Shown: one piece after another, positions 4,849-63,541 of the stretch
Layout of the letters: each line of letters opens with the position of its first letter
Position numbering within the stretch: position 1 is the first letter of the stretch
Assembly (NCBI RefSeq): GCF_021535135.1
Contig: NZ_CP091036.1
Location: forward strand, 3,534,001 to 3,598,000
Origin: Antarcticibacterium sp. 1MA-6-2
GTDB taxonomy: Bacteria; Bacteroidota; Bacteroidia; Flavobacteriales; Flavobacteriaceae
Length of the DNA: 64,000 nt
Reading direction: 5' to 3'
Notes under the pieces: model-generated
Told to the model about the DNA's origin: nothing
The model's input: the letters and a program-made list of their open reading frames with translations, nothing else
Database searches by the model: none
Program-made: the position numbers and the translations under genes

Positions 4849-6135
4849 AACCCAAAAACTTTGGGTAACCACAAGCTTAGCGCAGGGAAAAGTATCACCA
4901 GAATTAACGAAACTAACATTCCTGCAAAAAGAGGTAATAAAGGTTTTACCACTTTTTGTATAGTTGTGCTTAAGCAACCCCAACTCCAATAAATAGTACT
5001 GCTCCCACAGGAGGAGTGCATAACCCAATGCATAAGTTTAACACCATTATTACTCCAAAATGTACCGGGTCAATTCCCATGGCTACAGCTACAGGTAGAA
5101 AAATGGGAGTAAAAATTAAAACAGCGGGGGTCATATCCATAAAAATCCCAATAAATAAAAGAATTAGATTTATAAGAATCATTACAACTATAGGATTGTC
5201 ACTAAAAGACAACAATGCAGAAGTGACTTCCTGCGGAATGTTTTCATAAGACATTACCCAGGACATAGCGATGGACATGGCGATTAAAAGCATTACCAGG
5301 GAAATGGTACCAACTGATTGAACCAAAACAACTTTTAGATTTTTCAGGTTCAATTCTTTATACAAAAATGCCAACAGGAGACAGTAAATTACTGCTACTG
5401 AAGAAGCTTCGGTAGCAGTGAAAATTCCGCCTACTATTCCTCCAATAATAATGATCAAAAGTAGCAAACTGGGAAGTGCATCAAGAAAAGACTTAAAAAT
5501 ATGTGCGGCTGAACTTCTTTTAGAAGTTGGAAATCCTTTTTTCGAGCCCAAATGAGAGCGATGATCATTAAAATTAATCCTGTTAATATTCCGGGTATAT
5601 ATCCAGCAAGAAATAAAGCTCCAATACTTACCCCACCACTGGCAAGGGAGTATATAATGAAGATATTACTTGGCGGAATTAATAAAGCCCGGTAGTTGCT
5701 GCTGTAACATTTACTGCTACCCCGTACTCCCTGGTATAGCCTTCTTTCTCCATTCTCTCAGACATAAAACTGCCTATTGCTGCGGCTGCCGCACCTGCAG
5801 AGCCTGCAATAGCTCCAAACATCATGGCTGCAACTATATTCACATGGGCCAGACCGCCAGGGAGGGAGCCTACCAGCGATTTCGCAAATTCTATAAGGCG
5901 TTTTGCAATTCCACCGCTGTTCATAATATGTCCAGCGAGAATGAAAAACGGAATAGCAAGAAGAGAAAAGCTGTCAAGGCTTAGTGACTACACGTTGGGA
6001 AATAGTCGTAAAAGCCGCAATTGAATCTATGCTGAACAAAATGGTAAACAGTGAGGCAATTCCTATACTCCAGGCAATTGGAACACGTATCCCTACTAGA
6101 ACAATGAAAATTACTATAAGCATAAAAATTTCCAT
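4845..6135 (-). CDS. dctM: TRAP transporter large permease DctM (four frame breaks)
   Basis: Large membrane subunit of a tripartite ATP-independent periplasmic transporter, the Na+-coupled channel for a uronate. Summed reading frames give about 428 residues, the normal DctM length. The start shares one base with the dctQ stop (TAATG). Family segments seen in order are SFSLLAIPFFILAGHIMN, IVAAMMFGAIAGSAG, IPPSNIFIIYS and CIGLCTPPVGAVLFIG. The frame is broken at a CTTAG string near 5980, near 5679-5690 in a TTG-x-IPPS motif, in an A6 run near 5537, and at CTTAAG 4969-4974. Two of these sites match the recurrent CTGG-to-CTAG-like pattern described in the findings, so the gene is probably intact in the organism. 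It is the last gene of the uxaC operon. Confidence 0.82.
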
Positions 6136-6611
6136 TAGTCAATAAGTTTTAGAGCTTTACGGGCATCCAGGATGGCCAAAATTTTAAAGTAAATAATTAA
6201 AGCTCCTGCAACAGGGAGTACGAGGTAAACATAACCCATAGGGATTTCAAGAGCAGCTGAAGTTTGTCCCAGCTTAAAAGAAATATATATATAACGCAGT
6301 CCTCCTACGAGAAAGGTTACAAAAACAAATACTGTGATAATAATACTGGTCATAATATCCAGTAAAAACTTTTTCTTTTTTGAAAAGGTTGCTGGTAAGA
6401 GATCAATTGCTATATGGGCATTTTTACCGGAAACATAGGCGGCTCCAAGGATACTTACCCAAATAAGCATAAACCTGGCAAGCTCATCTGTCCAGGTACT
6501 TTGGTCGTCGTAAATATAACGTGTCAATACGCCCCAAAGAACACTTAGCAACATTACGATTAATAGAATAACCACGATCCATTCCAGCAATAGATTTAGA
6601 TTCTTCCGCAT
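6135..6611 (-). CDS. dctQ: TRAP transporter small permease DctQ
   Basis: Small membrane subunit of the TRAP transporter, 158 residues with four hydrophobic segments. The motif WTDELARFMLIW, followed by GAAYVSGKNAHIAID, is diagnostic for the family. Its start overlaps the dctP stop by one base and its stop overlaps the dctM start, so translation is coupled. The frame is unbroken. Confidence 0.9.
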   Translation of the reverse strand: MRKNLNLLLEWIVVILLIVMLLSVLWGVLTRYIYDDQSTWTDELARFMLIWVSILGAAYVSGKNAHIAIDLLPATFSKKKKFLLDIMTSIIITVFVFVTFLVGGLRYIYISFKLGQTSAALEIPMGYVYLVLPVAGALIIYFKILAILDARKALKLID

Positions 6612-8253: not shown

Positions 8254-8258
8254 AATAT

Positions 8259-9258
8259 TTATCTACTAATTCTACCCGATCTTTCGCCTTTTACAACCCC
8301 AAGCACTTCATCCTTACTTACGCGATTGAAATCACCCTGGATTGTATGTTTAAGACTGGATGCGGCAGTGGCAAATTCTAGGGCTTTTTGCTCGTCAAAG
8401 CTTTGAAGACCATAAATAAGTGCACCCATGAAACTATCGCTTAGTGCCTACCCGGTCTACAATTGGGAAGATCTCATAAGTATCTGAAGTGTATCCTTTG
8501 GAATTACTAAATAGAAATGCTGACCAGGTATGGTGGGATGCATTGATTTCTTTTCTGTTGGTAACGACAATCTTTTCTAAATTCGGGAATTTGTCAATTA
8601 AAAGCTTAGTTAGTTCTTCGTTGTTTAACCCTTCTGTTTGAAGAGCAAAAAATTTCTCACAGGGAAAATTTCCTGCCAGGAGGATATGGCTCTGCTGCAC
8701 AAATTCTGTCATTATTTCCTGTGGATCTACATCATACTGCCAAAGGTTAGCACGATAGTTAAGATCTGCAGATATAGTGATTCCCATTTCGGCTGCAGTT
8801 TTTATAGCATCCCGGCAAACATCTGCTGCATTTTTAGAAACGGCAGGAGTAATGCCAGACCAATGAAACCAATCACAGTCCTTTAAAATTTCCCTCCAGT
8901 TAAACCATTCCCTTTGAATTTCAGAAAAGGCAGAATAGGCCCGGTCATAAATAATTTTTCCAGAGCGGTTAATTGCGCCCCTTTCCATAAAATAAGACCC
9001 AAGCTTTTCTCCTCTATAAATGATATTTGTAGTGCCAACATCATTGAGTATAAGGTCTGCGACTGCTGCTTTTCCAAGATCATTATTAGGAAGAACAGAT
9101 ACAAATTCACTGGGTTTTCCAAAATTTGCAGCTGAAATTAATACGTTTGCTTCACTGCCACCATAGCCAACTTCCAACTTTTCTGCTTGTGAAAACCTTA
9201 AATAATTTTCACAGGTTAACCGCATTAGAATTTCGCCAAGGCTTACAAGTTTTTGCAT
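8259..9258 (-). CDS. kdgK: 2-keto-3-deoxygluconate kinase (PfkB family; one frame break)
   Basis: Phosphorylates KDG to KDPG. The protein starts MQKLVSLGEILMRL and has the PfkB glycine motif VGYGGSEANV. It ends ...VVKGERSGRISR, about 332 residues when both frames are joined. The frame is broken at 8439-8445, exactly at the PfkB signature. The sequence reads VDRVG then a one-base-too-long string, then DSFMGALIYG. The expected motif is VG(T/A)GDSF, so ACTGGC appears to be written as ACTAAGC on the coding strand. Loss of the anion-hole Gly and catalytic Asp would kill the enzyme, yet every residue on either side is conserved, which favours a sequence error. It sits 1 nt from uxaC and 5 nt from eda. 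Confidence 0.88.
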
Positions 9259-10687: not shown

Positions 10688-11134
10688 TTATTCAGGTTTG
10701 GTTGGCTATTTTAAATGAGGTTATTTGGGAAAAAATTTCAGGAATAACAGGATTTTGGGGAAGTATTTTATTAATTAAAATTATAGGTAAAGTATAATTA
10801 AGACTCATAAATCTTTCTCCCGGGTAGAACCTCTGGTTAATATTTTTAAAATTTCTAACTAAAGTATTTTTTCGTGCATCTGGATAACCGTGTAATGTTA
10901 TAGGGATCATTTTAAAAACGACCCTGAATATAGCTCTTTTCATAAGACATAATAGGGTAAAGAGCATTTGTATTTTGATAATCATTTGGAGGAGATAAGC
11001 TTAACAAATTAAACATAAATTTAAATTAAACGCAACCGATTGCGCAATATATTTTGAAGCTATTTTATTTTTGCCTAATTTTCCTTCCGCAACATTTTAA
11101 ATGTAGATGCGTAACCTCTAATTAGTACCCTATT
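10688..11134. promoter_or_regulatory. Divergent control region between uxaC and GH67 operons
   Basis: About 450 nt without a convincing gene. It must carry promoters for both operons. A LacI-type palindrome lies near the GH67 side. Just downstream of it, TATTTTTG fits the Bacteroidota TAnnTTTG -7 element, with the TTG of the palindrome's right arm about 20 nt upstream as a possible -33 element. The part nearest uxaC is low-complexity AT-rich sequence in which I see nothing firm. Confidence 0.5.
11031..11044. promoter_or_regulatory. LacI-type operator palindrome CGCAACCGATTGCG
   Basis: Five-base perfect arms (CGCAA/TTGCG) around a CG-containing centre, the usual form of LacI-family operators. 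It lies 91 nt before the GH67 start and overlaps a candidate -33 element. The LacI regulator at 3817 is the obvious candidate to bind it; this is inference. Confidence 0.6.
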
Positions 11135-13309
11135 ATGATAAAAAAAATACTCCTTGCAGCCCTTATTATTTGTGGATCGCCAGGGATATTGCTTAAGCAC
11201 AGGAAGGATATGATCTCTGGTTGCAGTATGATAAAATTGAAGATTCTGGAACCAGGAAAGACTATTTAAAGGTCCTGCAGAACTTAAAAGTTTTTGGTGA
11301 CAGCCCAACTCTTGAAGTGGCATCCGGGGAGATAAGTAGAGCTTATATGGGTTTATTACAAAAGGACCTTAGATCCCTACCCGATATTAGGCCAAATTCT
11401 GTAGTACTGGGAACAAAAGAATTTCTACTTAAGCAGGAATTATAGATCTTCTCGAAAAAAGTTTTTCCGAAATAAATGAAGAAGGTTTTATAGTTAAAAG
11501 TATTTCCTACAGGGATTCGCCCATTACCGTAGTTACTCGTAATACTAATGTTGGAGTACTTTATGGTACCTTTAGGTTTATTAAGGAAATGCAGTTGCAA
11601 AATAGTATTACAGCATTAAATATACGGGACTCCCCAAAAATCCAATTAAGGGTTCTCAATCATTGGGATAACCTGGATAGGACTGTGGAAAGGGGTTATG
11701 CTTAGGTTTCTCAATTTGGGACTGGCACCACCTGCCTGATCTTATTAAACCGGAATATATTGACTATGCCCGGGCTAATGCATCCATTGGAATTAACGGG
11801 ACAGTACTAACAAACGTCAATGCCAATTCCCTAATTCTCACGCCTCATTATATCGAAAAAGTGAAAGCCCTGGCCGGGGTATTCAGGCCCTACGGTATTA
11901 AAGTCTACTTAACTGCTCGCTTTTCTTCGCCTATTGAGTCGGGAGATCTTGAAACTGCCGACCCTCTGGACCCGGAAGTAAGGAAATGGTGGAAAAAGAA
12001 AGCAGAGGAAATTTATGCTGAAATACCTGATTTTGGCGGATTCCTGGTAAAAGCAAATTCTGAAGGTCAACCCGGTCCTAATAACTATGGCAGATCTCAT
12101 GTTGATGGAGCCAATATGCTGGCTGAAGCTGTTGCCCCTCACAATGGGATCGTGATGTGGCGTGCATTCGTATATTCTCAACACGATCCTGAAGACAGGG
12201 CTAAACAGGCTTATTCCGAATTTGTTCCTTTTGATGGAAAGTTTCACGACAATGTGCTGGTACAGGTCAAAAACGGGCCAATAGATTTTCAGCCACGGGA
12301 GCCTTTTCATCCTATGTTTGGTGCAATGCCAGATACTCCTCTTATGATGGAATTTCAAATTACCCAGGAATATCTTGGGTTTAGTTCCCACCTGGTGTAT
12401 TTACCTGCCATGTTTAAAGAGGTTCTGGATGAAGATACTTTTGTAAATGGAGAAGGATCAACCGTGTCGAAAGTGGTTGACGGGACCTTGTCAAATAAAA
12501 AATTAACGGGAATTGCGGGAGTTGCCAATATTGGAACTGCAAAAAACTGGACAGGCCATCCTTTTGGGCAAGCTAACTGGTATGGTTTCGGTCGACTTGC
12601 CTGGGATCCTTATCTGGATTCTGAAGAGATTGCGAAAGAATGGTTACAAATGACCTTTTCTAATGAAGAAAAATTTGTGGAGGAGGTTAGCGAGATGATG
12701 ATGGCTTCCCGGGAAGCAGTGGTAAATTATATGACCCCGTTGGGGCTTCACCATATAATGGATACGGGGCATCATTACGGCCCCGGCCCCTGGATTGACA
12801 ATTTAGGTCGTCCTGAATGGAATCCTGTTTATTATCACAGGGCAGACTCTTTGGGAGTAGGTTTTGATCGCACGGCTACGGGGAGTAAAGCACTTTCACA
12901 GTATGCTGCTCCTATTGTGGAAAAATATAATTCCGTTGAAACCACTCCGGAAAAATACCTGCTTTGGTTCCATCACCTGCCCTGGGATTACCAAATGGGA
13001 AACGGTAATACCTTGTGGTATAATATGGCAGCAAAATACCAGGAGGGTGTGGAAGATGTAGAGGAGATGGTGAAGACCTGGAATTCCATGAAGGAGTATG
13101 TGGATGACCAAAGCTTTGAAAAGACTCAAATGCTGCTGCAAATTCAATTAAAAGAAGCGAAATGGTGGCGTAATGCAGTACTTCTGTACTTTCAGCAGTT
13201 TTCGGGCATGGAGTTACCCGATTTCATTCCTGAACCTGAACACGATCTAGAATATTATCAATCGCTGGAATTTCCTTATGCCCCTGGCATTAGTCCTTCC
13301 TGGCATTAA
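11135..13309 (+). CDS. GH67 alpha-glucuronidase (three frame breaks)
   Basis: Removes (4-O-methyl)glucuronic acid from the non-reducing end of aldouronic xylo-oligosaccharides. The joined protein is about 720 residues, as expected for GH67. A signal peptide (MIKKILLAALIICG) is followed by YDLWLQYDKI, the substrate region RVLNHWDNLDRTVERGYA, and SIWDWHHLPDLIKPEYIDYA. The C-terminal half, with GHPFGQANWYGFGRLAWDP, MDTGHHYGPGPWID and HHLPWDYQMGNGNTLW, is unbroken. Breaks fall at CTTAAG 11192-11197 (expected LLAQ), CTTAAG 11428-11433 (expected LLAG) and CTTAGG 11701-11706 (expected GYAGFS). All three are repaired by restoring CTGG. It is the first gene of the xylan operon and probably periplasmic. 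Confidence 0.9.
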
Positions 13310-13317
13310 AAACAAAT

Positions 13318-14061: not shown

Positions 14062-14071
14062 GATGTACAAA

Positions 14072-15237
14072 ATGACTCAAACCATGCGGTGGTACGGTCC
14101 TAACGACGTGCTCACGCTAAAGGAATTAAAACAAGCTAAGCATCACTGGTATTGTTACTGCCCTGCATGAAATTCCCGTTGGGGAAGTCTGGACTGAAAA
14201 GGCAATTTTGGAGAGGAAAAAAGAAATAGAAGATTCCGGTTTAAACTGGAGTGTGATCGAGAGCCTGCTTAGGTGCATGAGGATATAAAAAAAAGAGCCG
14301 GAAATTATGAAGAGTACATTGCCAATTACAAGTTAAGCCTCCAAAACATTGGAAAATCCGGGATTAATGTAGTGGCATATAATTTTATGCCTATCCTTGA
14401 TTGGGTGCGCACAGAGCACCATTTTGAGAATAAGGAGGGAGCTACTGTATTGCGATATGACCCCGTTACCTTCGCTTTTTTTGACCTTTTTTTACTTAAG
14501 AGGAAAAACGTAGAGAATGATTATTCCCCGGAGGCAATTGCCCAGGCAAAAGAGTTGGGGGAAAAACTATCTTCAGAAGAAAAAGAGCAGCTATTTAAAA
14601 ATATACTGTTGGGCCTTCCCGGGAGTAAAGAAAATTTTACCCCGGAAATTATAAAAGAGCAGCTGGAAACATATCAACACATTAATGACGAAAAATTGCG
14701 GGAGAATTTAGTTTCTTTCCTTTCAGAAGTTGCTCCTGTAGCGGCCGAAAATGGGGTGCAACTGGCAATCCATCCCGATGATCCACCTTTTTCAGTACTG
14801 GGATTGCCACGGGTGGTGAGTAAGCAGAAGGATCTGGAATACATTTTTCAGAATGTTGATATAACGGCAAATGGACTTTGCTATTGTACAGGCTCTTTGG
14901 GAGCAAACCCCGAAAACGATCTACTGGAGATCTTCGACAAATTCAGTGACAGAATTCATTTTTTGCATCTGCGGAATGTGAGGAAGGAAGCTTCAGGCGT
15001 CTTTATGGAATCAGACCATCTCGACGGTGACGTTCCAATGGCTGAAGTAATGAAGAAAATTTTAAAATTACAGCAGGAAAAACAAAAAAGCCTACCAATG
15101 CGGCCCGATCATGGTTACCTGCACTCCCTGGAAAATGATAAGAAATACTATGCTTAGGTTATTCCTTCATTGGAAGATTAAAAGGACTGGCTGAATTGCG
15201 GGGACTGGAACTTGGAATACTGGAAAACCTGAAGTGA
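14072..15237 (+). CDS. uxuA: D-mannonate dehydratase (three frame breaks)
   Basis: Dehydrates D-mannonate to 2-keto-3-deoxygluconate. The start is set at the ATG giving MTQTMRWYGPND, which aligns with E. coli UxuA; another ATG lies 9 nt upstream. Conserved parts are GIVTALHEIPVGEVW, LAIHPDDPP, LCYCTGSLGANP and a C-terminus ending RLKGLAELRGLELGIL. Breaks occur at CTAAG 14136-14140 (expected QAGITG), CTTAGG 14268-14273 (expected ESLPVHE) and CTTAGG 15153-15158 (expected an xGYSFIG segment). In the joined frame the protein is about 388 residues, close to family length. The stop overlaps the sequence just before the GH10 start, which suggests coupling. Confidence 0.9.
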
Positions 15238-15242
15238 AATAT

Positions 15243-16394: not shown

Positions 16395-16407
16395 TTAAAA
16401 TAACAGG

Positions 16408-19265
16408 ATGACAGCCCAATTTAAATACACGATAATCCTTTTTATGTTCCTGTCGGTTTTAGGAATGAACTCCGGGCTTTATGCACAGGAATCTTACATT
16501 ACTACTTCTGAAGAAACAGGATATTTCCCGCTGGTCTCTGTAAATGGAACTGCAGCTATTTACATTGATCAGGATGATTTTAAAGGGGTTCATCGTGTAG
16601 CTGAAGATCTTCAAAAAGATATTGAAAGGGTAACCGGGAAGCTACCCGAACTTAAAACAGTTGCTGAGGTATCTACAGGGATGCTTATTATTGTTGGAAC
16701 ACTGGGGAAAAGCAAATTAATTGATGAGCTTGTAAAAACCAGGAAGATCGGTGTATCAGAAATAGAAGGAAAATGGGAAACTTTTGCTATTCAGGTAGTA
16801 GAAAATCCATTTCCTGGAGTGAAACAAGCGTTTGTGATCGTGGGTAGTGATAAACGGGGTACTATTTTTGGGATGTATGACGTTTCCAGAGAAATTGGAG
16901 TCTCCCCCTGGTACTACTGGGCAGATGTTCCCCCAAATAAATCTGATGTTCTTTATGTCCAGCCAGGGTTACATACAAAAGGTACTCCAAAAGTAAAATA
17001 CCGGGGGATATTTATTAATGACGAAGCTCCGGCACTCGCGGGGTGGGCAACAGAAAACTTCGGTGGTTTCAACAGTAAATTTTACGAACATGTTTTTGAA
17101 TTGATACTGCGCATGCAGGGAAATTACCTGTGGCTAACCATGTGGGGAAGAGCTTTTTACGATGATGATCCCCGCAATCCTGAACTCGCAAATGAGTACG
17201 GAGTAGTTATTGGGACTTCTCACCATGAGCCTCTAATGCGGGCACACGACGAGTGGCGGCGATTTGGTGAAGGGGATTGGAATTATAATACAAATCCAAA
17301 AAATCTTCAGGAATTCTGGAGAGGTGGAATTGAAAGAATGGGAGACTACGAAAGTGTGGTGACTGTAGGCATGCGTGGTGATGGCGATGAACCTATGAGT
17401 GAAGGCACTGCCATTGAATTACTCGAAAAAATAGTTAATGACCAGCGGCAAATTATTTCGGAAGTAACCGGAAAGCTGAGCAGAGGAGACTCCTCAGGTT
17501 TGGGCATTATATAAAGAAGTACAGGATTATTATGACCAGGGAATGCGGGTTCCCGATGATGTAACTTTGCTTTTGGCAGATGATAACTGGGGAAATATTC
17601 GAAAGCTACCAAATCCTGAGGAAGCTTCCCGGAAAGGTGGGTATGGTATATACTATCATTTTGATTATGTAGGAGGTCCAAGAAATTATAAATGGCTCAA
17701 CACCACTCAAATTTCCAGAGTTTGGGAGCAAATGAACCTGGCATATAAATTTGGAGCAGACAAGCTGTGGATAGTAAATGTGGGAGATATTAAACCTATG
17801 GAATATCCCACAAGTTTCTTCCTGGATTTTGCCTGGGATCCTGAAAAAATAGGAGCAGGAGACCTGAAAGAATATACTCAAAACTGGGCTGCCCGGCAAT
17901 TAGGTAAAGAATTTTCTAAAGAAATAGCAGATATTCTTTTAACATATACGAAGTATAACAGCCGTAGAAAACCCGAATTGATTAGTCCCGGGACGTACAG
18001 CCTTTCTAATTTTAATGAAGCTGAGAGAGTTGTAAAAGAGTATAACGAGCTGGTAGAAAAAGCTGAAGCGATCTATAGACAGATTCAGAAAAAATATAGA
18101 GACGCCTATTTCCAACTGGTCCTGTTCCCGGTAAAGGCATCTGCGAACCTTAATGAGTTGTATGTATCTGCAGCAAAGAATAAATTGTATGCAGCGCAGG
18201 GGAGAGCCGCAGCAAATATATATGCCGCGAAAACGAAAGAACTTTTTGAAAAGGACGCGGAACTTACCAACCAGTACCACACTGAATTAGCTTAGCGGAA
18301 AATGGAATCACATGATGTCTCAAACTCACATTGGTTATACTTACTGGCAACAGCCAGACCAGAATAACATGCCGGAGGTTGGCGAGATTCCGCTTCAGGA
18401 AAATGCTGAAATGGGAGTAGGAGTCCAGGGTTTGGAAAGCGTGGTTACGGGGAATGGTTCTACCACAACTCTTCCCGCGTTTGATCCATTTAACGATCAG
18501 GAGTTTTACATAGAAATTTTTAATAAGGGGCAGAAGCCTTTTGAGCATCATATTCAGAAAAAACCATCCTGGTTAGAACTTTCCGAAGAAAAGGGTACTA
18601 TAGAGGATCAAAAGAGACTTAAGGTGCAGGTGAATTGGGGGAAAGCGCCAAAAGGAAGTAGTACCTGTTCTTTTCAGGTCAATGGAACCTATAAGCAAGT
18701 TACAATTAAAGTTCCCGTTCAAAATTTTAATAAAGGGAAAATTCAGGGTTTTGTAGAAAGCAATGGGTTTATATCGATGGAAGCTGATAATTTTTCAGAA
18801 AACGTACAGGTAGATGGAAAAGGATGGCAACTTATTCCAAATCTTGGAAGAACAGGCGCTGCAATGACTTCTTTTCCTCATGAGCCTACCCAACAGGAAG
18901 TATCTAAAGATAATCCTTACCTGGCGTATGATTTTTACAGCTTTACTCAGGGAAAGGCTGAGGTGGAGTTTTATTTATCCCCCACAATTGATTTCAGAAA
19001 TCAGGGGGGGCTGGAGTTTGCTTATTCTGTTGATGACGGAGCGCCTCAGGTAATTAATATGCAAGGGCAAACTAAGGATAATTGGGATACTTCAGTAGCG
19101 AATAATGTTACAAAAGTAAGTGTTACAGTTAATTTCAACCCAGGAAATCACACCCTAAAGGTATGGGCAATAGAAACGGGTATTGTGCTTCAAAAAATAG
19201 TTATTATAACCGGAGAAAAGAAAAATTCCTATTTAGGCCCCCCGGAAAGTGCGAAAGTGAAATAG
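16408..19265 (+). CDS. GH115 xylan alpha-1,2-glucuronidase (two frame breaks)
   Basis: Removes glucuronate side chains from polymeric xylan, complementing GH67, which needs terminal positions. The signal peptide ends near GLYAQES. The joined protein is about 950 residues, as usual. Conserved segments include DKRGTIFGMYDVSREIGVSP, KYRGIFINDEAPAL, NYLWLTMWGRAFYDDDP, GTSHHEPLMRAH, TVGMRGDGDEPM, LLADDNWGNIRKLP and GGYGIYYHFDYVGGPRNYKW. The break at CTGAG 17476-17480 falls in an expected GKPAEETPQVW context, and the break at CTTAG 18291-18295 in an expected LAGGKWNHMMSQ context. It is the last enzyme of the operon. Confidence 0.9.
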
Positions 19266-19481: not shown

Positions 19482-20469
19482 ATGAATTATAGAAAATTAG
19501 GAAAGACAGGATTCGAAATTTCAGAAATCTCACTTGGCACCTGGCAAATTGGAGGAAAATGGGGATCAGGTTTTAGCGATAAAATTGCTGAAAAAACCAT
19601 ACATACTGCAATAGACAAGGGAATTAATTTTATAGATACTGCAGATGTTTATGAAAACGGATTAAGTGAGGCTGCAGTTGGAAGAGTGGTTAAGTCGAGA
19701 TCAGAGAAAATTTATGTTGCTACCAAATGTGGACGTAAAATATCTCCTCATGAGACTGAAGGCTATACACCACAGATTCTAACCAAATTTGTAGAAGACA
19801 GTTTGAAAAATACTTAGTTTGGAGAGACTGGATCTTATCCAGCTTCATTGTCCTCCAACCGATGTTTATTACCTACCTGAAATTTTTGAAACTTTTGACC
19901 GCCTTCAACAGCAGGGAAAGATTGACAAATTTGGGGTAAGTGTTGAAAAAGTGGAAGAGGCTTTGAAAGCAATTGAATATGATATTGTAGATACTGTTCA
20001 AATTATTTTCAATCTTTTCAGGCAACGACCGTCAGAACTTTTCTTTCAGCAGGCAAGAGAGAAGAATATTGGAATTATTGCGCGTGTTCCTCTTGCCAGC
20101 GGTTTATTGACCGGGAAGTTCGATACGAATGCGAGCTTTGATAAAGAAGATCATCGTAATTTTAATCGCAATGGGGAAGCTTTTGATAAAGGGGAAACCT
20201 TTTCAGGTCTTGATTTTGATCATGGTTTGAGAGCTGTAGAGGAGCTTAAAAAATTATTTCCTGAAGTTCAAAACTTAGCTCCTATTGCTTTACAGTGGAT
20301 TTTAAAATATCCTGAAGTAAGCTGTACTATTCCCGGTGCATCCAAAGAAGAGCAATTGCTCTCTAATTTATCTATCTATGATTTGCCTGAGCTTAGCAAC
20401 AAAAAAGTGCAGGAGATGAATGAAATCTATGTAAATTTTTTAAAGGAAGAAGTTCACCAGAAATGGTAG
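19482..20469 (+). CDS. Aldo/keto reductase (one frame break)
   Basis: NAD(P)H-dependent oxidoreductase of the AKR family, about 328 residues when joined. MNYRKLGKTGFEISEISLGTW is truncated here to its key features: the GKTG start, FIDTADVYENG with the catalytic Asp and Tyr, ATKCGRK with the Lys region, and DLIQLHCPP. The C-terminus has IPGASKEEQL for cofactor binding. The break is at CTTAG 19813-19817, where KNT-G-LERLDLIQ is expected. It lies about 215 nt after GH115, so it may have its own promoter. A role in sugar or uronate reduction is possible, but the substrate is unknown. Confidence 0.82.
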
Positions 20470-44973: not shown

Positions 44974-47270
44974 TTATTCGTTTGTAAGGGAGTAGGGGAA
45001 ATCTGCTTTTTTCGTTCCCCTGCTTTTGTTGGGTTTACTGGTCATATCAAAATCTATAGTAGCTCCCTTCATTAACTCCTTATGGCTTAACCAGTTTTTA
45101 GTATATGGTTTTCCATTTACCGTCATCTTCTGGATATAGATATTTTCAGCACTATTCTTAGGAGCAGTTATCACCACTTCATTTCCATTTTCCAGTTTAA
45201 GAGTTATTTTTTTGAACAAAGGTGCACCAAGCACATATTGATCTGTGGCAGGGGCTACTGGATAAAAACCTAATGCAGAGAAGACATACCAGGCAGAGGT
45301 TTGCCCATTATCTTCATCTCCAATATAACCATCAGGGGTAGGGTGATACATTCTGTTCATAGTCTCTCTTGCCCAGTATTGAGCTTTCCAGGGTTCACTA
45401 AGCATAATTGTACAGGTAAATCATATGCTGGATTGGTTGATTTCCATGGGCGTACTGTCCCATATTGGCAATTTGCATTTCCCTTATCTCATGAATGACG
45501 CCTCCGTAGTAACTTTCATCAAAAATGGGAGGAAGAGAGAAAACTCTGTCAAGTTGATCTGTAAATTCCTTATTTCCACCCATTAGATCTATAAGTCCCT
45601 GCATATCGTGAAAAACTGACCAGGAATAATGCCAGCTGTTTCCTTCAGTAAAAGCATCTCCCCATTTGAAAGGATTAAAAGGAGTCATAAACTCACCATT
45701 TTTATTTTTTCCTCTCATTAATTGAGTTTCCGGATCGTATAAATTCTTGTAATTCTGGCTGCGCTTCTTATAAAGTTCAATTTCCTCTTTGGGTTTATTA
45801 AGGGCTTTAGCAAGCTGGTAGATCGCGAAATCATCGTAAGCGTATTCAAGCGTTCTTGCGGCATTCTCGTTGATATCAACGTCATAGGGGACATATCCCA
45901 GTTCCTTATAATATTCAGCTCCTGCACGTCCCACAGCTGTCATAGGACCAGCGTTGTTAGCACCGTTTATTAAAGCCTTATATAGGTTTTCTATGTCGTA
46001 CTTATATGCATTACCGCTTTTGAGATAAGCCTCAGCCACTACAGAAGCAGAATTATTCCCAACCATAATATTTCTTAGACCAGGGCTTGCCCACTCCGGC
46101 AACCATCCACTTTCATCATAAGCATTAGAGAGACCTTCCTGCATTTTTCCGTTTAGCTCTGGGTACATTAAATTAAGGAATGGGAAGAGGGATCTAAAAG
46201 TATCCCAGAAGCTAGGTATCAGTAAACATATAGCCTGGTCTTACTTCTCCATTATAGGGGCTGTAGTGAACTACCTTTCCATTTTCATCGTATTCAAAAA
46301 ATTTCCTGGGGAAAAGTAACGAACGATATAAACAGGAATAGAAAACCGCAATTTGATCTGGAGTTCCTCCTTCAACTTTAATTCGGCTCAATTCTTTGTT
46401 CCAAATTTGTTTTCCTTCTTCCTTTAAAGCATCAAAATCTTTATTGCCAATCTCTTTGAGGTTTCGTTCTGCCTGCTCGTGACTTATAAAAGAGGAGGCA
46501 ACTTTGGCATTTACTATTTCTCCTTCTTTTGTTTTAAAACCTATTACAGCACCTACATGGTTTGCTTCGGCTTCCCGGGAAGCTGAAAGAACATCGTCTT
46601 TAAAGGTTGCGGTGTAGGTAAATTCTTTATCAAATTCAATTATGAAGTAATTTTTGAAATTTTCAGGAACTCCTCCGCTATTTTTCGAACTGTAACCAAT
46701 TATCCGGTTTTGCTCAGGCAGGATCTTCACATAGGAACCCTCGTCAGTCGCATCAATTACCACATAGGCACTATCAGCTTTGGGGAAGGTGAACCTAAAC
46801 CGTGCAGCTCTTTCTGTTGGAGTTATCTCTGTGGTGACATCGTGATCGGCTAAATAAACACTGTAATAGTGAGGTTTAACGACCTCTGCTTTATGAGAAA
46901 ACCAACTTTTTCTCTCGTCCTGCTTAAACTTTAGCTTTCCTGTTATAGGCATAATTGCGAACTGGCCGTAATCATTCATCCAGGGAGAGGGTTGGTGGGT
47001 TTGTTTAAAACCATTAATTTGATTAGCATCATATGTATATGCCCAACCATCACCCATTTTACCTGTTTGAGGTGTCCAGAAGTTCATGCCCCAGGGCATG
47101 GCAATTGCCGGATAGGTATTTCCTGTAGACAAGCCCGGGCTGGAGTCTGTTCCCATTAAAGGCTTAACCCAATCTACAGGGCTGCTAACATTGTCAATGA
47201 GCTCATTTTGTGCCTGTTGTACCTGAGTGCAGATAAAAAAGACAAATAAACTTGCCAGTAATTTTTTCAT
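44974..47270 (-). CDS. GH92 alpha-mannosidase-type enzyme, copy 2 (two frame breaks)
   Basis: Secreted GH92 enzyme of about 764 residues. Signal peptide (LLASLFVFFICTQVQQAQ), then SPVDWVKPLMGTDSSPGLS, GNTYPAIAMPWGMNFWTPQT, TEITPTERAARFRF, EYAYDDFAIYQLAKAL, GDEDNGQTSAWYVFSAL and a C-terminus ending FPYSLTNE. Breaks are at CTAG 46212-46215 (expected MFTDT-x-FWDTFR) and CTAAG 45398-45402 (coding strand CTTAG; expected LYNYAGEPWKAQ). The acid loop again reads HGNQP (45434-45448) instead of HGNEP. It has its own perfect operator and lies upstream, in transcription order, of nothing else on this strand before the terminator. Confidence 0.88.
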
Positions 47271-50389: not shown

Positions 50390-51315
50390 ATGCCAATAGC
50401 TATTGGAGTAGACATTGGGGGCAGCCACATTAGTAGTGCTGCAGTCAACTTACTAACCCATCAAACAATTCCCGGCACCTATCATCACGGTGAGGTTGAC
50501 AGTAAAGCATCAAAAGATGAAATTTTTAAACGGTGGGCTGCCGTCATTAATCTTACACTTCAGGAAGTAGAGGAAAATGAGCTGCTGGGAATTGGAGTGG
50601 CCATGCTCGGTCCCTTTGAATATCGAAAAGGAATAGCCCTTTTTGAGGAAAATGATAAATATGAAGCTTTGTTTCAGGTTCCGGTTGGAGAAGAATTTCC
50701 AAAATACCTTTTATATAAAGATTTGAAATTAAGATTCCTAAACGATGCTTCTTCATTCGGGATTGGGGGAGCCCTCAGTACTGAATTAAAAGATGCGAAA
50801 AATACAATAGCAGTTACTCTGGGCACTTAAGCTTTGGGGCCTCTTTCCTCAAAAAAGGAGTGCTAGTAGTAAATGGTAGTGATGTTCCTGAAGGGGGTTG
50901 TCTATGGGATAAAGAATTTAAAGAAAGTTTTGCTGATGATTATTTTTCTACGCGATGGTTCTTGCAACGTCATTATGATTTGACCGGATCAAATGGTATA
51001 AAAGGGGTTAGGGAGATTGTAAATGAAGATAGTATAAGTACTAAAAATATATTTGAAGAATTTTCTCAAAACTTAAGCAGGTTTATGCTGCCCTATCTGG
51101 AAAAATTTGATGCAGATCTTTTAGTCCTGGGCGGTAATATAGCTAAAGCTCATGCTCTCTTTTTGCCAAAGCTCAAAGAATACTGGGAGCAAAAAAATTG
51201 TACGGTTGCAACAAATATTATTGAAAATACAGAAGAAGCAAGTATTATTGGTTCCTCCTACCTCTTTAATGAAGAATTTTGGAAAAGCGTTAAAAAGGAG
51301 CTGCCAACTCGATAA
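50390..51315 (+). CDS. ROK-family sugar kinase (one frame break)
   Basis: Phosphorylates a hexose, by context mannose from mannan breakdown. About 308 residues joined. AIGVDIGGSHISSAAV is the ROK ATP-binding start, LRFLNDASSFGIGGAL follows, and DADLLVLGGNIAKAHALF is the C-terminal adenosine motif. The break at CTTAAG 50826-50831 falls in TLGT-x-FGASFL, where Gly is invariant; restoring CTGG gives TLGTGFGAS. A CTAGTA at 50863-50868 encodes Leu-Val where Pro-Val could be expected. The CxCGxxGC zinc motif of many ROK kinases is not evident. GH92 copy 3 follows 59 nt later. Confidence 0.8.
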
Positions 51316-51374: not shown

Positions 51375-53586
51375 ATGGAAAAAAAATTTTACATCCTCAA
51401 CAGCAATGGATTACGGGTTTTTACCCTTTTGGGAATTATCTTTTTTACTGGGTCTTGCAAATTCGAGGATACTACTCCACTGGAAAAAAATAACGAAGGA
51501 GAAAAAGATTATACAGCCTTTGTAAATCCCTTTATCGGGACTGCACCATTAACTGATACTAAAATTATTGGATATACTCCCCCTGAAGGTTGGAGAGTAT
51601 GGGCAGGCCTGGTTTATCCCGGCTCGGCCTTACCAAATGCCATGGTGCAGTTAAGCCCAATTACTGAATATGGAACAGGGGCAGGGTATGAATATGAAGA
51701 CACAGAAATCTTAGGATTTGCCCATACAAATAAAGGGCACTGGAACCTGGTAAATATTCCTGTTCTTCCGGTTTCTGGTGAGGGAACATACCCTTTTAAG
51801 TCATCTTTCCTTCACGAAAAAGAAGAAGCCTCCCCGGGTTACTATAGCGTTTATCTGGAAGATACAAAAGTAAATGTAAGGCTAAGCTCAACATTAAGAA
51901 GTGGAATACACGAATACACATTTGAAAATGGAAATAGCCGAAAGATACTTTTTGACCTCGGGAAAGCAAATAATAGGGTATCCAATTGGGAGATCAACCA
52001 AATTACAGATAAAACAGTTAGTGGTTACCAAAGAGTTGGCAGGGATAAGATTTACTTTTTTGCAACCCTAAGTCATCCTGTGACTGATATAGTTAAGGAA
52101 AAGCCTGGAGAAAGTGATGGCTATGCACTTGTAAATTTAAGGAATGGTGGAGCGGGTCCGGTAATTTTAAAAATAGGTCTTTCCTATGTGAGTACAGAGA
52201 ATGCTGCTGAAAATCTTGAAAAAGAAATTGGCTCCTCCACATTTGAGGATGTTCACCTGAATGCTAAATCTACCTGGAATTCTTTATTATCTAAAATAGA
52301 TGTGAAGGGCGGCAACAATAAACAAAATGAATTATTTTATACCTCTCTCTATCGGTCCTTTCTTTGGCTAAGCCTTGAGGAGTGATATTAACGGTCAATT
52401 TACAGATGTAAAGGGAGAGGTGCAAACGAAGGATTTTAATTATTATACAAATCCCTCCTTTTGGGACACTTATAGAAATAAACTGGTGCTGTTAACTATT
52501 GTTTCTCCAGATGTTACAACAGATGTGATTAAATCCCTGATAGATCAGGGTGAGAAAACAGGGTTTATACCAACATTTTTTCATGGTGATCATGCAGCGC
52601 CTTTCATCGCCGGAGCTTATGCGCGTGGAGTTGATGAATTTGATGCAAAAAAAGCTTATGAGTTCCTTCTTAATAATGCCACTAAAGAAGGAGGGCCACG
52701 TCCTCATATAACCGAGTATATTGAAAAAGGTTTTATATCTGATCCCGATGTGAAGAACCCAGTTGTGGAGACAAAAGCAAAAGCAGGAGTTTCCAAGACC
52801 CTGGAATACGCTTATGATGATTATTCCTTAGCCAAGTTGGCAAAGTCATTAGGAGATGAGCAACGATATGAAGAGCTGATGAAAAGATCTGGCAACTACA
52901 AAAATGTTTTTGATACCAATAAAAATTTTATGCGTGGAAGGTTGGAAAATGGTGACTGGATAACTCCTTTTAATGCTGAATATCCCTATTACGAATATAT
53001 GTACAGGGAAGCCAATGCCTGGCAGGTGTCTTTCTATGTTCCCCACGATATGCCGGGACTGGTGAGATTATATGGTGGAGAAGAAAAGTTCGAGGAAAAA
53101 CTGGATTCTCTGTTTACATTTCCCTGGAATCCTAAACATATTGCACGGAATGTATCAGGTTTTATGGGACAATATAGCCATGGAAATCAGCCAGATCACG
53201 AGGCGCCCTTTTCATATTATTTCGTGGGGAAACCCGAAAAATCACAAAAAATTATAGATCAGCTTCTGGAAAATTATTACGGAATAGGGGAGGATGGTTT
53301 GGCCCTTTCAGGAATGGATGATGCAGGAGAAATGTCATCCTGGTATGTCATGGCTGCATTAGGTTTATATCCATTATCGCCTGCAGATACTGAATACCTG
53401 GTTACCGTTCCAATTTTTGATCATATAGAATGGAAGGTAGGGAATAACACTCTCATAATTGAAAAGCCTGAAGGAGGAAGAAATTTAAAGAAAATTTTGG
53501 TAGATGGGATGGAGCATCATTCCTATTTTGTTCCTCATGAATTGTTTAAAAGAGGTGGGAAAATTGAAGTTATAACCGAAAAATAA
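51375..53586 (+). CDS. GH92 enzyme, copy 3, lipoprotein (one frame break)
   Basis: Lipoprotein of about 736 residues (signal ending FFTGSC). AFVNPFIGTAP, YPGSALPNAMVQLSP, GFAHTNKGHWNL, TEYIEKGFI, TLEYAYDDYSLAKLA and SGMDDAGEMSSWYVMAALG are GH92 markers. It belongs to a different branch from copies 1 and 2. The break at CTAAG 52368-52372 is in FLW-x-ALRSD, where the family has Pro (WPALRSD); restoring CCAG repairs it. The acid loop is HGNQPDHEAPF (53179-53193), with Gln for Glu again. Lipidation suggests a cell-surface or outer-membrane-facing location, unlike the other two copies. Confidence 0.87.
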
Positions 53587-53709: not shown

Positions 53710-54278
53710 ATGAAAACAAACTATAATCCTATTCTCAATACTACCCTCATCTTATTTATAAGCATAGTTTTCAGTTTAAAAACTTCTGCACAAAGCAGTG
53801 CTTCAAATAAGTTTCAGGAAGAGATAATCCATCTGCACTTAAGCAAATTAATACAAGCTCCTGCATTCCATCAGGTGTTGAAATGATATTAAAATTAAAC
53901 TGTAAAGTTGAAACCGATTTCTATAACTATCAGCAAATATGGGGAAACAAAACAGATGGAACCTTCAAAAATTTTGATAATCTATTAATAAATGGTCTTC
54001 GATTCTCTCATAAATTTAATCTTAAACGCGACCTTAATTTCCCGTTAACAGATTTGTTTAAAGCTATAGATGAGGAGTTGTCTAATAATCGATACGTCCT
54101 CGTGTCTCTGGTTTCGGGACAAAATATGTGGCACATCTACGTAATTAGTGAAAAGTTGGATAATGGGGAGTATAAAGCCTATAGTAAAATTGACGAAAAA
54201 ACTTTGGTTGTCTCTAATGTTAGGGAGTATATAACCAATATGAAAGGGACAGATATAATGGTATATAGGGAAGAGTAG
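53710..54278 (+). CDS. Putative C39-like cysteine peptidase (one frame break)
   Basis: A secreted protein of about 189 residues; signal peptide MKTNYNPILNTTLILFISI through SLKTSAQSS. After the break, NTSSCIPSGVEMILK resembles the catalytic Cys region of C39-like peptidases, and QNMWHIYVISEK the catalytic His strand, with an Asp/Asn later. The break is at CTTAAG 53838-53843; restoring CTGG gives HLHWQINTSSC in frame with Trp encoded by TGG. This one site shows that the original bases were CTGG and not CTAG, because CTAG would encode a stop. It precedes the repeat lipoprotein gene. Peptidase assignment is moderate. Confidence 0.55.
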
Positions 54279-57152: not shown

Positions 57153-57918
57153 ATGAATAACCGAGTTTATTCTACTCTCATTATAGATGATGAACCTCCT
57201 GCAAGGGAGAGATTATCACAACTATTGAAAAATTTTCCGGAGACATTTAATGTTATTAGTACTGCCGAAAACGGAAGTCAGGCGAGGGAACAAATTCAGC
57301 GACTACAACCTGATTTAATTTTTCTTGATATTCAAATGCCTGGACTTACAGGATTTGAAGTGTTAGAAAAACTTGATAAACTTCCTGTTGTAATTTTTTG
57401 TACTGCTTACGACCAATATGCCTTAAAAGCCTTTGAAACCAACTGTCTGGATTATCTCCTAAAACCTAGTTCGCCTTGAACGTTTAGAACAAACCGTAAA
57501 GAAATTACAGCATTTTGAGAGTAAGCTTTCACCTGCTGAAATCCTGTCTTTTTTAAAAAATATTGCGCTAAAGGAGAAAACAAAAGCCCTAACTTCTATA
57601 AGTGTCAAAAAAGGAGAGAGGCTTGTTTTTGTAAAGCTGGAAGAAGTCCTGTATTTCGAAGCCAGTGAAAAGTATGTCATTGTAAAGACAGCCAAAGAAA
57701 ATTTTTTGAGTAATATCTCACTTGCAGAATTAGATGCTAAACTCCCACCCAATTTTATAAGGGTACATAAATCTTTTATTTTAAATAAGGAGCACGTGAA
57801 GGATGTCCAAAAATATTTTAACAACAGGTACAGTATCGCGATGACTGATGCTGCTAAAACTGTAATTACTTCCGGAAGATCCTATAAAGATAAAATAAAG
57901 GAATGGCTTTTTATTTGA
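57153..57918 (+). CDS. LytTR-family response regulator (one frame break)
   Basis: Partner of the histidine kinase, about 255 residues. Receiver domain (residues 1-115; LIIDDEPPARERL, LIFLDIQMPGLTG with the phosphorylated Asp, FCTAYDQYALKAFE), then a LytTR DNA-binding domain (FVKLEEVLYFEASEKYV, FIRVHKSFILN). The break is at CTAG 57466-57469 in DYLLKP-x-RLERL, where the invariant Lys-Pro is followed by Val; CCAGTT read as CCTAGTT explains it. Targets unknown. Confidence 0.88.
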
Positions 57919-59648: not shown

Positions 59649-59693
59649 ATTTACTTCAAGTTTAAATTTTTAATAAACCCATAGCAATTCAAT

Positions 59694-61547
59694 ATGAAAC
59701 ACACCTATTTTTGCCACCCTTTTAGGAGTGGAAGAACCATTCTTCTTCTGGCCCTTCTGGTCCTGGTACAGAATTCTTATAGCCAGGTGCAGAAATTTGA
59801 TTTTCAGGATCTTTCTGCATTTAAAAATCCAGGAAAGAGCTGGAAAATTGTTGGCAATGTTCATGCAGATCTGGATGAGACTAATGAACTGGAAACCTCC
59901 AGAGGTACAGGGATCCTCGTAAATGATCCCGAAAATAAGGCTGGCCAGGATCTTTACACTAAAGATCAATATGGTAACATAGATTTGAAAGTGGATTATA
60001 TGATGGCCAAAGGTTCAAATTCAGGAATTTATTTTCAGGGACAATATGAACTTCAGTTAAAAGATAGTTGGGGTCTTACAGCTATTACCTCTGGTGAGAA
60101 TGGAGGGGTTTACCAGCGTTGGGATGATAAAAAACCGGAAGGAGAGAAAGGATATCAGGGATATGCCCCCCGTCAAAATGTTAGCAGGGCTCCTGGTTTA
60201 TGGCAGCATCTCGAGGTTTCATTTCAGGCTCCCAGATTTAATGGGCAGGGAGAAAAAATAGAAAACGCGAAGTTTATATATGTGAGGTTGAATGGGGTAA
60301 CCATTCACGAAGATTTAGAACTTTCAGGACCTACCCGGGGAAGTATGGAAGCTGGGGATAAAGCCAAAGGACCTCTTCGTATCCAGGGAGATCACGGGGC
60401 GGTAGCATTTCGTAATATGGAAATCACAGGTTTTGATAAGCCACGTCCTGAATTGACAAATCTTAAATTTAAAGTATACGAAGGAAAATTTGATAAAGAA
60501 CCTAACTACAATAATCTTCCTCCTGAAGCTGAAGGTGAATCTGTGGTGTTAACTTCAGATTTAAGTACAAAATCAGAACAATTTTTAATTAGGTATACAA
60601 GCGATCTTCAGGTGGAAGAGGCAGGAGAATATACATTCAACCTGAATACTTCTGGTGGGGCAGGTTTGATAAGGATAAACGGAAATGAAGTTGTTCCTTT
60701 GTCTAACGGAAGAGGAAGAGCTACCGTGAATTTACAGCCGGGGAACTTCCTTTTGAACTACTGTATTCTAAATTCCAGGATTGGGCCGACCCAGGTTTAG
60801 GCTTAACCCTTTCAGGGGAAGGAATTAGAGAATACCTTATAAGTGAAGATGGGGGAAATCTTGAAGATCCCGTAGATCCTATTTTGGTAGAAGCAAATAC
60901 CCCGAAGGTGTTCCGCAGTTTTATGAACTTACCCGGAGGTGAGGATTCAAAAAATTATTTAATTACCCATGCAGTCTCTGTTGGTAATCCTAAACAGTTA
61001 CATTATACTTACGATCTTAACAGAGGCGCTATTGTGCAATTATGGCGTGGGGGATTTCTTGATGCTACTCCTATGTGGTATAGTCGTGGGAATGGTACCT
61101 CACGACCACAGGGAAGCATTTTACATCTTGGAGAACCAACAAGATCGTTAGGAAAACTTTCATCTCCACAACAGGAATGGGCAGCAGATACCACAGGTAG
61201 TAATTTTAGAAATCTTGGATATAAACTTGATGAAAATGATATGCCTACGTTTAGGTACAGTATCTACGGTGTAAAGGTGGAAGACGTCGCAAGATTATTG
61301 GACGGTGCGAACGGAATTCAAAGAAAGATTTCAGTTGATTCCCCGGTGGAAAACTTACACGTAAGACTTGCTTAGTGGGAAGAAAATAGAGAAGCTTTCA
61401 AATGAGTTATACCTGGTAGGTGATAAGGAATACTACATCCGCCTGGATAATATTGGCAAGGCAAAACCTGTTGTGAAAGGCAGTAACAATGTGCAGGAAC
61501 TTTTGGTGCCAGTAGACAGAGAGCTTACCTACACCCTTCTTTTTTAA
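59694..61547 (+). CDS. DUF1080 (3-keto-disaccharide hydrolase-like) protein (two frame breaks)
   Basis: Secreted protein of about 617 residues. A signal peptide (ILLLALLVLVQNSYSQ) is followed by a DUF1080 beta-sandwich (about 32-250; NSGIYFQGQYELQLKDSWG, GGVYQRWDDKKPEGEKGY, DHGAVAFRNMEI). A PA14-like segment follows (about 285-380; RYTSDLQVEEAGEYTFNL), then a C-terminal part with VENLHVRLA. Breaks lie at 60758-60765 (before KFQDWADPGL) and CTTAG 61372-61376. Recent work links DUF1080 to hydrolysis of 3-keto-glycosides. It sits 11 nt before the cytochrome gene and is probably co-transcribed with it. Confidence 0.75.
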
Positions 61548-61557
61548 TATTTATAAT

Positions 61558-63541
61558 ATGGCTTATAAAATGATACCAAACAAGCGTAAATTTTTTCTAC
61601 CAAAGTTGCATCTCCTTATTTTTGCAATATTGACTTCCGGGTTTTGTACGACTATCTCTGCCCAGGAATCGCCTATGGAGGAGGATTTTTTTAACATTAG
61701 AAATATAAGGACTCCTGAAGGAATACTTCTGGAGGTTGGAGGTCTTTGTGTTCTTCCCAATGGTAATCTAGGAATTGCTACACGCCGCGGGGAAATATAT
61801 ATTGTGGAAAATCCCACCAGCTCGCGACCTTTCTTCCGGCACTTTGCTTCCGGATTACATGAGCCTCTGGGCCTGGCTTATAAGGATGGCGCTTTTTATG
61901 CAGCACAACGGGGGGAATTAACTAAACTGGAAGATACAGATTACGACGGAAAGGCCGATGTCTATGAAACAGTTTATTCCTGGCCCCTGTCCGGTCATTA
62001 TCATGAATATAGTTTCGGACCTAAAATAGCACCAGATGGTTCCTTCTTTGTAACAGGTAATGTTGCTTTTGGGGATGAAGAATGGTGGAGAGGAGAGAGT
62101 CGTGTGCCATGGAGAGGGTGGACGATGAAGATTAGCGAAGATGGTAAAATGGAACCATGGGCTACAGGTATGAGATCTCCTGCAGGTCTTGGAATGATTG
62201 ATGGAGAATTTTTCTACGCTGAAAATCAGGGAGACTGGATGGGATCCGGTGGTGTGTGGAAAGTAGATAAAGGAACTTTTACCGGGCATCCTGCAGGTTT
62301 GCGCTGGTCTAATAAACCCGGTTCTCCAGTAAATATCACTACAGAACAATTGTATGCCCAGGTTGACCCAATGCAGGAAAAGAATGAGAATGGAAGATAT
62401 ATCAAACCAGAAAATTCTCAAAATACAGACTTCGTAAGTTTGTACGAGTTAAAAGATGAATTTCCACAACTTAAAACTCCTGTGGTATGGTTGCCTCACG
62501 GAATTCTGGGAATTTCTAATTCTGAAATTCTAAAGATACCTGAAGGAAATTTTGGTCCTTTTGAAGGTCAATTGCTGGTAGGTGATCAGGGAATGAGTAT
62601 GATCATGAGAGTTTTCATGGAGGAGATCAATGGAGTTCACCAGGGAGCTGCATTTGCTTTCCGAAGTGGTTTCCAGTCGGGAGTACTGCGATTGGCCTGG
62701 GCAAAGGACGGTTCTCTTTTTGTAGGTGAGACTAACCGTGGATGGGGATCTGCTTAGTGAGGCTAACCAGGGTTTACAGCGCCTGGTGTGGAATAAAAAA
62801 CTTCCTTTTGAAATGAAGGCCGTTCGGGCAATGCCTGATGGATTTGAAATAGAATTCACTATGCTAGTAGATCGCAAAACGGCAGAGGATCCGGCTTCCT
62901 ATTTTGTAAATAGCTTTATATATAAATATTATGCTGTTTATGGAAGTCCCCCGGTTAATCTTGAAGAAAATGAAATCCAGGGTGTAAAGGTTTCAGAAGA
63001 CGGAATGAAGGTGCGGATAGTAGTTGATAATCTTAGAGAGAATTTCGTTCATAACATTTCCCTTTTTGGAGTTAGGGCTAAAGAAAATTCTTATTCGTTA
63101 GTTCATCCTACTGCCTACTATACTTTAAATGTTATTCCAGATGGAGAGAAATTAAAGCTGGCTGACTTGAAAAAGACAAGTAGTGCAAAAGAAACTACGA
63201 CAGCGGCAAAAGCAAAAGCAGAAACTGCAAAATCAACTAAAACCACTGTAGCTACCTCAAAGCAGCAGGTGCCAGATTTTGAAACTATACAGCCAATTCT
63301 TCAGCGGAATACTTGTTTTGCCTGTCATGCTGTGGATAAAAAGCAAATTGGTCCTTCTTATATGGAAGTTGCCAAACGAAACTATAGCAATGAAAGGATC
63401 CTGGAGCTTATTCATAATCCGGAACCTCAGAACTGGCCCGATTATCCTGTTGCAATGCCTCCAATGCCTCAGGTCTCTAAAGAAGACGGTTTAAAAATAG
63501 CAGCCTATATAAACTCTTTGAATGATAAATCGAAGAAGTAA
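61558..63541 (+). CDS. Beta-propeller sugar-dehydrogenase-like protein with C-terminal cytochrome c (one frame break)
   Basis: Secreted protein of about 660 residues. After a signal peptide (LLIFAILTSGFCTTISAQ) comes a six-blade-type propeller (GGLCVLPNGNLGIATRRGEI, GLAYKDGAFYAAQRGELTKL, GMRSPAGLGMIDGEFFYAEN), a middle Ig-like part, a Lys/Ala/Thr-rich linker and a cytochrome c domain with the heme motif CFACH and a distal Met region MPPMPQVS. The break is at CTTAG 62753-62757, in WGSA-x-EANQGLQRL. An in-frame CTAGTA at 62864-62869 gives Leu where FTMPVDR is expected. It may pass electrons from oxidised sugars and work with the DUF1080 partner. Confidence 0.75.

Follow-up and report, generated by a model that had tools for sequence, protein, structure and literature searches.

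Missing RCCGGY sites and CTAG-like frame breaks in an Antarcticibacterium genome assembly point to systematic consensus miscalls at a probably methylated palindrome

Why should conserved genes along a single bacterial contig be interrupted, one after another, at closely similar CTAG-like strings? The question is raised by a stretch of 64,000 nucleotides from Antarcticibacterium sp. 1MA-6-2 (hereafter the window), which corresponds to positions 3534001-3598000 of the single 4,383,004-base contig NZ_CP091036.1. A preliminary description of this DNA had counted some 34 frame breaks in about 20 genes, back-translated the strings to CTGG or CCAG within RCTGGY/RCCAGY, and ascribed them to a consensus error on modified DNA rather than to gene decay. 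Our analysis supports this kind of explanation and replaces its motif: the real motif is the palindrome RCCGGY, not RCTGGY/RCCAGY, and the breaks very probably arise from systematic long-read consensus miscalls at RCCGGY sites modified by 5-methylcytosine (5mC). Sites were counted in three samples of the genome, namely the window, 400 kb around rpoB and a dispersed 400 kb (864 kb altogether), and in 400 kb each of two relatives, G002 and G001, the former being the closest among the compared genomes (89.8% DNA identity over 3.8 kb at rpoB).

Frame breaks were located with an ab initio codon-model decoder trained on G002 and G001, the test stretches being held out, and the strings were defined as R-C(1-2)-T(1-2)-A(1-2)-G(1-2)-Y (P strings), 41 of which occur in the window. 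With its initial settings the decoder returned no breaks in the window or in G002, 5 in G001 and 4 in a 64-kb stretch of the own genome near rpoB (2 of them near P strings); its penalties were changed afterwards, and the results of a looser and a stricter setting are both reported. Under the looser setting, 18 of the 41 breaks predicted in the window lay at most 20 nt from a P string (2.7% by chance) and 9/34 did so in the stretch near rpoB (3.8% expected), as against 0/17 and 0/29 in 64-kb stretches from G002 and G001, respectively. The stricter setting gave 17/35 in the window, 9/26 near rpoB, 0/17 in G002 and 0/26 in G001. Therefore, the tie of these strings to frame breaks, unlike their density, is beyond chance. 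Among the 23 window breaks lacking a P string, 17 fall, by hand count, within about 22 nt of the start or end of an open reading frame (ORF), and are thus probably gene junctions. A comparison with homologous proteins, covering part of the window, found 8 clusters of breaks, 5 of them with a P string; two of the 8 face an RCCGGY of a relative, and a P string stands at only one of these two.

The alignment of 400 kb around rpoB with 400 kb of G002 revealed what the strings replace, since they face RCCGGY sites of the relative, and it is this palindrome that is missing from the assembly. RCCGGY occurs once in the window, 6 times in the rpoB region and 5 times in the dispersed sample, i.e. 12 times in 864 kb, compared with 359 (G002) and 419 (G001) occurrences per 400 kb in the relatives. 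The flank-swapped control YCCGGR was counted 62, 410 and 383 times in the same three samples, and 403 and 460 times in G002 and G001. Dinucleotide shuffles of the window predicted 17.55 RCCGGY, where one is found, and 29.5 YCCGGR, where 62 are found. At the scale of the whole genome, GCCGGC occurs once, as against 81-739 times in 15/15 congeners, the control pattern being present 199 times here and 28-366 times in the congeners. An unbiased k-mer comparison with G002 retrieved ACCGGC as the most depleted 6-mer, a result that is supportive only, as many other k-mers differ too as a consequence of composition and repeats.

The motif of the preliminary description shares with RCCGGY the ability to explain the protein context of the breaks, for the Ala-Gly, Thr-Gly and Pro-Val junctions fit CTGG as well as CCGG, and errors at GCTGG have been published for a Listeria strain (PMC10687267, in the part of that article available). 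Nevertheless, the tally of RCTGGY/RCCAGY (111 in the window, 613 in the rpoB region, 618 in the dispersed sample and 688 in G002) corresponds to a normal density, that is 1.73, 1.53 and 1.55/kb as against 1.72/kb in the relative. Retention provided a second criterion: sites common to G002 and G001 were aligned to the own genome and scored as kept or as replaced by a TA-containing string. None of the 42 common RCCGGY sites was kept and 17 read as a TA-containing string, whereas 74/127 RCTGGY and RCCAGY sites were kept, with TA in 7. Normal density and retention together speak against RCTGGY/RCCAGY as the modified site, and the same idea of a modification error with CTGG/CCAG as its motif is accordingly regarded as highly unlikely; nor are two mirror groups derived from one motif needed, RCCGGY being a single palindrome. 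Three hexamers that the preliminary description had found intact, and had attributed to context or partial modification, do not call for the latter: two are of the RCTGGY type and so lie outside the motif, and the third (40307) belongs to the sole remaining RCCGGY of the window, an ACCGGC at 40304..40309 identified by pattern count. All 12 surviving RCCGGY sites read ACCGGY on the reported strand, and 10 of them are preceded by two A/T bases, a configuration found at 78/359 sites in G002 and 109/419 in G001; the correct reading of a site may be set by its neighbouring sequence.

Among the remaining control classes, YCCGGR sites were kept in 9/21 cases (TA 0), RCCGGR and YCCGGY in 23/76 (TA 6), RGGCCY in 11/22 (TA 1), RGCGCY in 6/14 (TA 0) and RCGCGY in 0/3, too few to judge. 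When all 200 aligned RCCGGY sites of G002 were considered, 3 were kept in the own genome, with TA in 50, and 47 were kept in G001, with TA in 14. The share of TA strings at common RCCGGY sites (17/42, 40%) approximates the retention of YCCGGR (9/21, 43%), as would result from a normal true conservation of the palindrome with nearly all conserved sites being misread. These figures also bear on a true avoidance of RCCGGY, in which the strings would be a separate matter. Hosts of restriction-modification systems can indeed under-represent their own sites, and the window shows fewer surplus P strings than missing RCCGGY sites, so that some genuine avoidance may add to the error. Against avoidance stand the TA strings at shared RCCGGY sites, which are absent from the 21 YCCGGR controls, and the match of their share to control retention; in addition, a genome of another genus of the same family (G168), which carries a related enzyme pair, has 114 RCCGGY and 88 YCCGGR in 400 kb. 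Avoidance as the whole explanation is therefore very unlikely.

Are the indels present in the DNA? A true decay of genes, or a hypermutable lineage, would account for frame breaks as numerous as the 83 defined by homology to G002 in about 215 kb of aligned sequence. A P string, however, stands at 53 of these 83 breaks, compared with 2.3% of random regions of equal lengths, and a C-T-A-G string with any flank at 59/83 (6.0% of random regions), so most breaks fall on one class of strings opposite one palindrome. Furthermore, rpoB, an essential gene, is split here by an in-frame TAG and is read as a single open frame in each of the 11 relatives for which a match was obtained. A 16S rRNA site (16S identity being assigned via Rfam) that reads GCCGGT in all three operons of G002, and GCCGGT or GCCAGT in the other aligned genomes, shows three different readings of two lengths in the three operons of this strain; these operons differ elsewhere too, and the site is thus one telling site and no clean replicate. 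Finally, deamination of 5mC would have yielded RCTGGY/RCCAGY, which is not in excess. We therefore consider decay highly improbable: given the split rpoB, the discordant 16S copies and the concentration of breaks on one string class, the indels are probably not in the DNA and the genes themselves are probably intact.

It could also be argued that the strings are real and are bypassed by programmed frameshifting or hopping, as many of them place TAG or TAA at the break. Such recoding is exceedingly improbable: the same change is found in 16S rRNA, so that coding (rpoB) and non-coding DNA are hit alike; the strings occur in both orientations relative to genes (e.g. GCTTAGC and GCTAAGC); the change in length varies and may be zero; and a palindrome is lost genome-wide at the same time. 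As a separate observation on ribosomal genes, the 23S rRNA of the relative G004 (C2 1398869-1400985 and 2790270-2791890) is matched in several fragments only, perhaps reflecting another assembly with systematic errors or insertions in the rRNA.

A motif-specific and strand-symmetric error on modified DNA, as the preliminary description had envisaged, presupposes a modifying enzyme, and the genome encodes a suitable one. The search found one C5-cytosine methyltransferase gene (PF00145, 5.9e-48), an open frame on the minus strand at contig positions 3944957-3946141, whose product carries the catalytic motifs of this class, PC, ENV and QxRxR, all of them conserved without exception in an alignment of 6 sequences. 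The genome search yielded no gene of the PF01555 family, other N4-methylase families not having been sought. The end of the methyltransferase gene overlaps the start of a gene for a 359-residue protein that matches over its full length (residues 2-355, 6.9e-132) the type II restriction enzyme profile REase_II PDLC03534 of PADLOC, and upstream, adjoining an integrase-family gene, lies the gene for a mismatch endonuclease of the Vsr type, an enzyme known to accompany 5mC systems. Methyltransferase, restriction enzyme and Vsr genes occupy contig positions 3943900-3946934, outside the window. The side-by-side arrangement of these three genes and the integrase-family gene (3943900-3947493) is possibly that of a mobile restriction-modification island.

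The relatives of the methyltransferase provide an indication of its specificity. Within the genus (16 genomes), matches occur in 4 further genomes, none of them a close copy (39% for the best, in G014). Among 518 matching plasmid records, four relatives were examined for their neighbours, with identities that cover the aligned part only: those of plasmids from Nostoc sp. HK-01 (53%) and Moraxella osloensis FDAARGOS_1202 (51%) and of pBsrF30 from Geobacillus subterraneus CPW16 (40%) each adjoin a gene of the PF07832 family (Cfr10I/Bse634I), and the second half of the aligned methyltransferases shares the block KS.KRLHR.RYSPT..YGNNEVHLHP. Cfr10I and Bse634I cut R^CCGGY, according to the part of PMC4081073 available, and in the corresponding part of PMC8112702 RCCGGY is given as the m5C site of 'Bacillus stearothermophilus CPW16', which, judging by the strain name, would be the host of pBsrF30. 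Thus, two independent lines point to RCCGGY, the one read off the errors and the other suggested by three of the four relatives of the methyltransferase examined. The similarity to these plasmid systems lies in the homologous C5 methyltransferase and the shared block, whereas the partner enzyme here has no PF07832 match, in contrast to 3/3 plasmid enzymes, and a Vsr gene stands nearby. A genus-wide search with PF07832 returned nothing, but nothing in any control either, so that this search does not demonstrate absence.

The restriction enzyme has its own relatives in three viral contigs (54-61%), with none in the phage collection, and partial matches of 32-36% in the best 15 of 155 plasmid records, 10 of these 15 being annotated as type II restriction endonucleases. 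Its predicted structure was uninformative (mean predicted local distance difference test score, pLDDT, of 65.6; best PDB match at E 0.033). In G168 the related pair shows 77% identity for the restriction enzyme and 63% for the methyltransferase, and its locus (L193:9967-19485) adjoins genes matching the Druantia DruK and DruE profiles, an arrangement that looks as if a restriction-modification pair and a Druantia-type system shared or exchanged a methylase.

A consistent scheme can be proposed for the origin of the errors. The C5-cytosine methyltransferase of the strain would methylate RCCGGY, and the assembly would derive from native DNA read with a basecaller untrained on this mark. The recovery of the genome as one 4.38 Mb contig suggests long reads, and nanopore, as the preliminary description had put forward, is a plausible platform and the most likely one. 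Nearly every RCCGGY would then be called as a CTAG-like string, with the central CG becoming TA and often 1-2 extra bases, consistently enough for the miscall to enter the consensus; strings that change the length would break the frame, and those that keep it would pass as silent false substitutions. That the modified base is 5mC and is made by this enzyme on a genome read by nanopore is what we infer from the features described above. Alternatively, the mark may be a further-processed cytosine new to basecallers and the partner an RCCGGY nuclease unrelated to Cfr10I/Bse634I; this possibility, which would explain both the near-complete failure and the reading of the central CG as TA, is considered unlikely.

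The artefact is of a known kind, and it predicts an RCCGGY restriction-modification system. Nanopore consensus errors at methylation or other modification motifs are documented in the available parts of PMC6591954 and PMC10687267. The errors at Dcm sites (CCWGG) treated in the former resemble those inspected here in that a methylated-cytosine motif meets an untrained basecaller and systematic consensus errors follow, but in our case the motif is RCCGGY and nearly every site is hit. The Listeria case of the latter (GCAGC, GCTGG) likewise reveals a lineage-specific modification through motif-specific nanopore errors; there, the errors were counted as mismatches and checked by whole-genome amplification, whereas here many are indels and are known from the assembly alone. 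VchM of Vibrio cholerae also produces 5mC at RCCGGY (PMC4654547, in the part available), a likeness that concerns the site. The accessible portion of PMC10333322 mentions nanopore frameshifts and does not mention RCCGGY, and a limited literature search retrieved no account of nanopore errors at RCCGGY, which is no proof that there is none.

Several observations weigh against systematic miscalls at methylated RCCGGY as set out above. The raw density of P strings in the window (0.64/kb) is only slightly above that of the relatives (0.59 in G002, 0.39 in G001), with 0.86 and 0.91/kb in the two other samples of the same genome, and RCTTAAGY taken alone is not significant in the window (8 vs 4.7 expected, at least 8 being reached in 12/100 shuffles); density is weak and was not used as evidence. 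In addition, 24 of the 83 homology-defined breaks have no C-T-A-G string at all. A long homopolymer, a typical site of indels in long-read assemblies, is present in 7 of these 24 (10.8% of random regions), and the rest comprise other strings, unexplained cases or noise of the method. The partner restriction enzyme has no sequence match in Pfam (to E 0.1), NCBIfam or PDB, and its specificity therefore rests on that of the methyltransferase. The latter also matches the DruM profile of Druantia (PDLC00030, 7e-142); its best profile is MTase_II PDLC03355 (7e-161), above DruM, and no helicase-sized long ORF is present among the ORFs around the locus, whose neighbours were left unscanned with Dru profiles. 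For the fourth plasmid relative (48%), which is unannotated and comes from Rhizobium leguminosarum, a scan of three downstream ORFs revealed no gene of restriction type. This relative and the DruM match slightly lowered our confidence. G168 combines a related pair with the presence of RCCGGY, which requires another platform or basecaller, or another specificity, in that organism. Lastly, failure at almost all 5mC sites is a severe effect, and we found no published per-site rate for comparison.

At the level of individual sites in the window (positions given without strand), 11 of the 16 sites named in the preliminary description are frame breaks according to the decoder and two more (11428 and 11701) according to homologues; breaks at such strings are thus borne out, but the totals of 34 breaks and 20 genes could not be confirmed. 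All 16 coordinates do hold the strings ascribed to them and fit the P string, whose R and Y flanks had not been given. Supported by the decoder are the breaks at 14135..14141 (CTAAG), 44232..44238 (CTAG), 50825..50832 (CTTAAG) and 62752..62758 (CTTAG), as well as that at 57464..57470 (CTAG), predicted under the looser setting only. Those at 11427..11434 (CTTAAG) and 11700..11707 (CTTAG) are supported by homologues, and for the CTTAAG sites 11191..11198 (11192) and 53837..53844 (53838) a break is without independent support. Additional P strings coincide with breaks at 4968..4975 (homologue-supported, by one protein), 5979..5985 (decoder, with a homologue break on the other strand too, 2 proteins), 8439..8445 (decoder, 39 homologues being split there) and 61370..61376 (decoder).

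Decoder and family profiles coincide at most of the other sites. Breaks mark the start of a UxuA fragment at 14267..14274 and its end at 15152..15159, separate the GH115 and GH115_C ORFs at 18290..18296 and precede an aldo/keto reductase fragment at 19812..19818, the last three sites being already named in the preliminary description, as is the break at 31315..31321 within a SusC-type gene, whose first ORF matches positions 1-557 of the profile and the following one positions 558-981. Another listed CTTAAG site, at 43591..43598, is a break beside a DUF2961 fragment. Three GH92 mannosidase-type genes, all fragmented in the assembly, lie in the segment 39099-53586, each in pieces that cover successive parts of one family profile. 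The listed CTTAG site 39078..39085 (39079) stands just before a GH92 fragment starting mid-profile and is thereby supported indirectly, by the profile; further breaks fall within a GH92 gene at 39822..39829, at the end of a minus-strand GH92 fragment at 45397..45403, between two minus-strand GH92 fragments at 46211..46217, and between two GH92 fragments at the listed CTAAG site 52367..52373. The breaks at 39822 and 46211 affect the same protein stretch in two GH92 paralogues. The grouping of glucuronate isomerase, mannonate dehydratase, GH10 and GH115 genes at 9260-19265 looks like a glucuronoxylan utilisation locus, the glucuronate isomerase being 75% identical to that of Gillisia lutea, of a genus of marine, non-pathogenic bacteria, as the closest among the loci returned. 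A DNA search of the relatives with the SusC/SusD stretch gave short matches only outside the own genome.

The consequences would extend to the whole public genome. The 53 breaks at P strings within some 215 kb of aligned coding DNA (~0.25/kb) extrapolate to roughly a thousand broken frames over the 4.38 Mb of the genome, in-frame errors coming on top of these; the gene catalogue, the pseudogene count and even the 16S sequence are affected, and the completeness figure may be as well. On the other hand, as the preliminary description had anticipated, the errors make DNA modification legible: from the class of sites that is missing one can read what the methyltransferase recognises and predict the specificity of a restriction enzyme for which Pfam offers no match. 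Scanning assemblies for a missing palindrome with normal flank-swapped controls could find more such genomes and assign enzymes to their sites.

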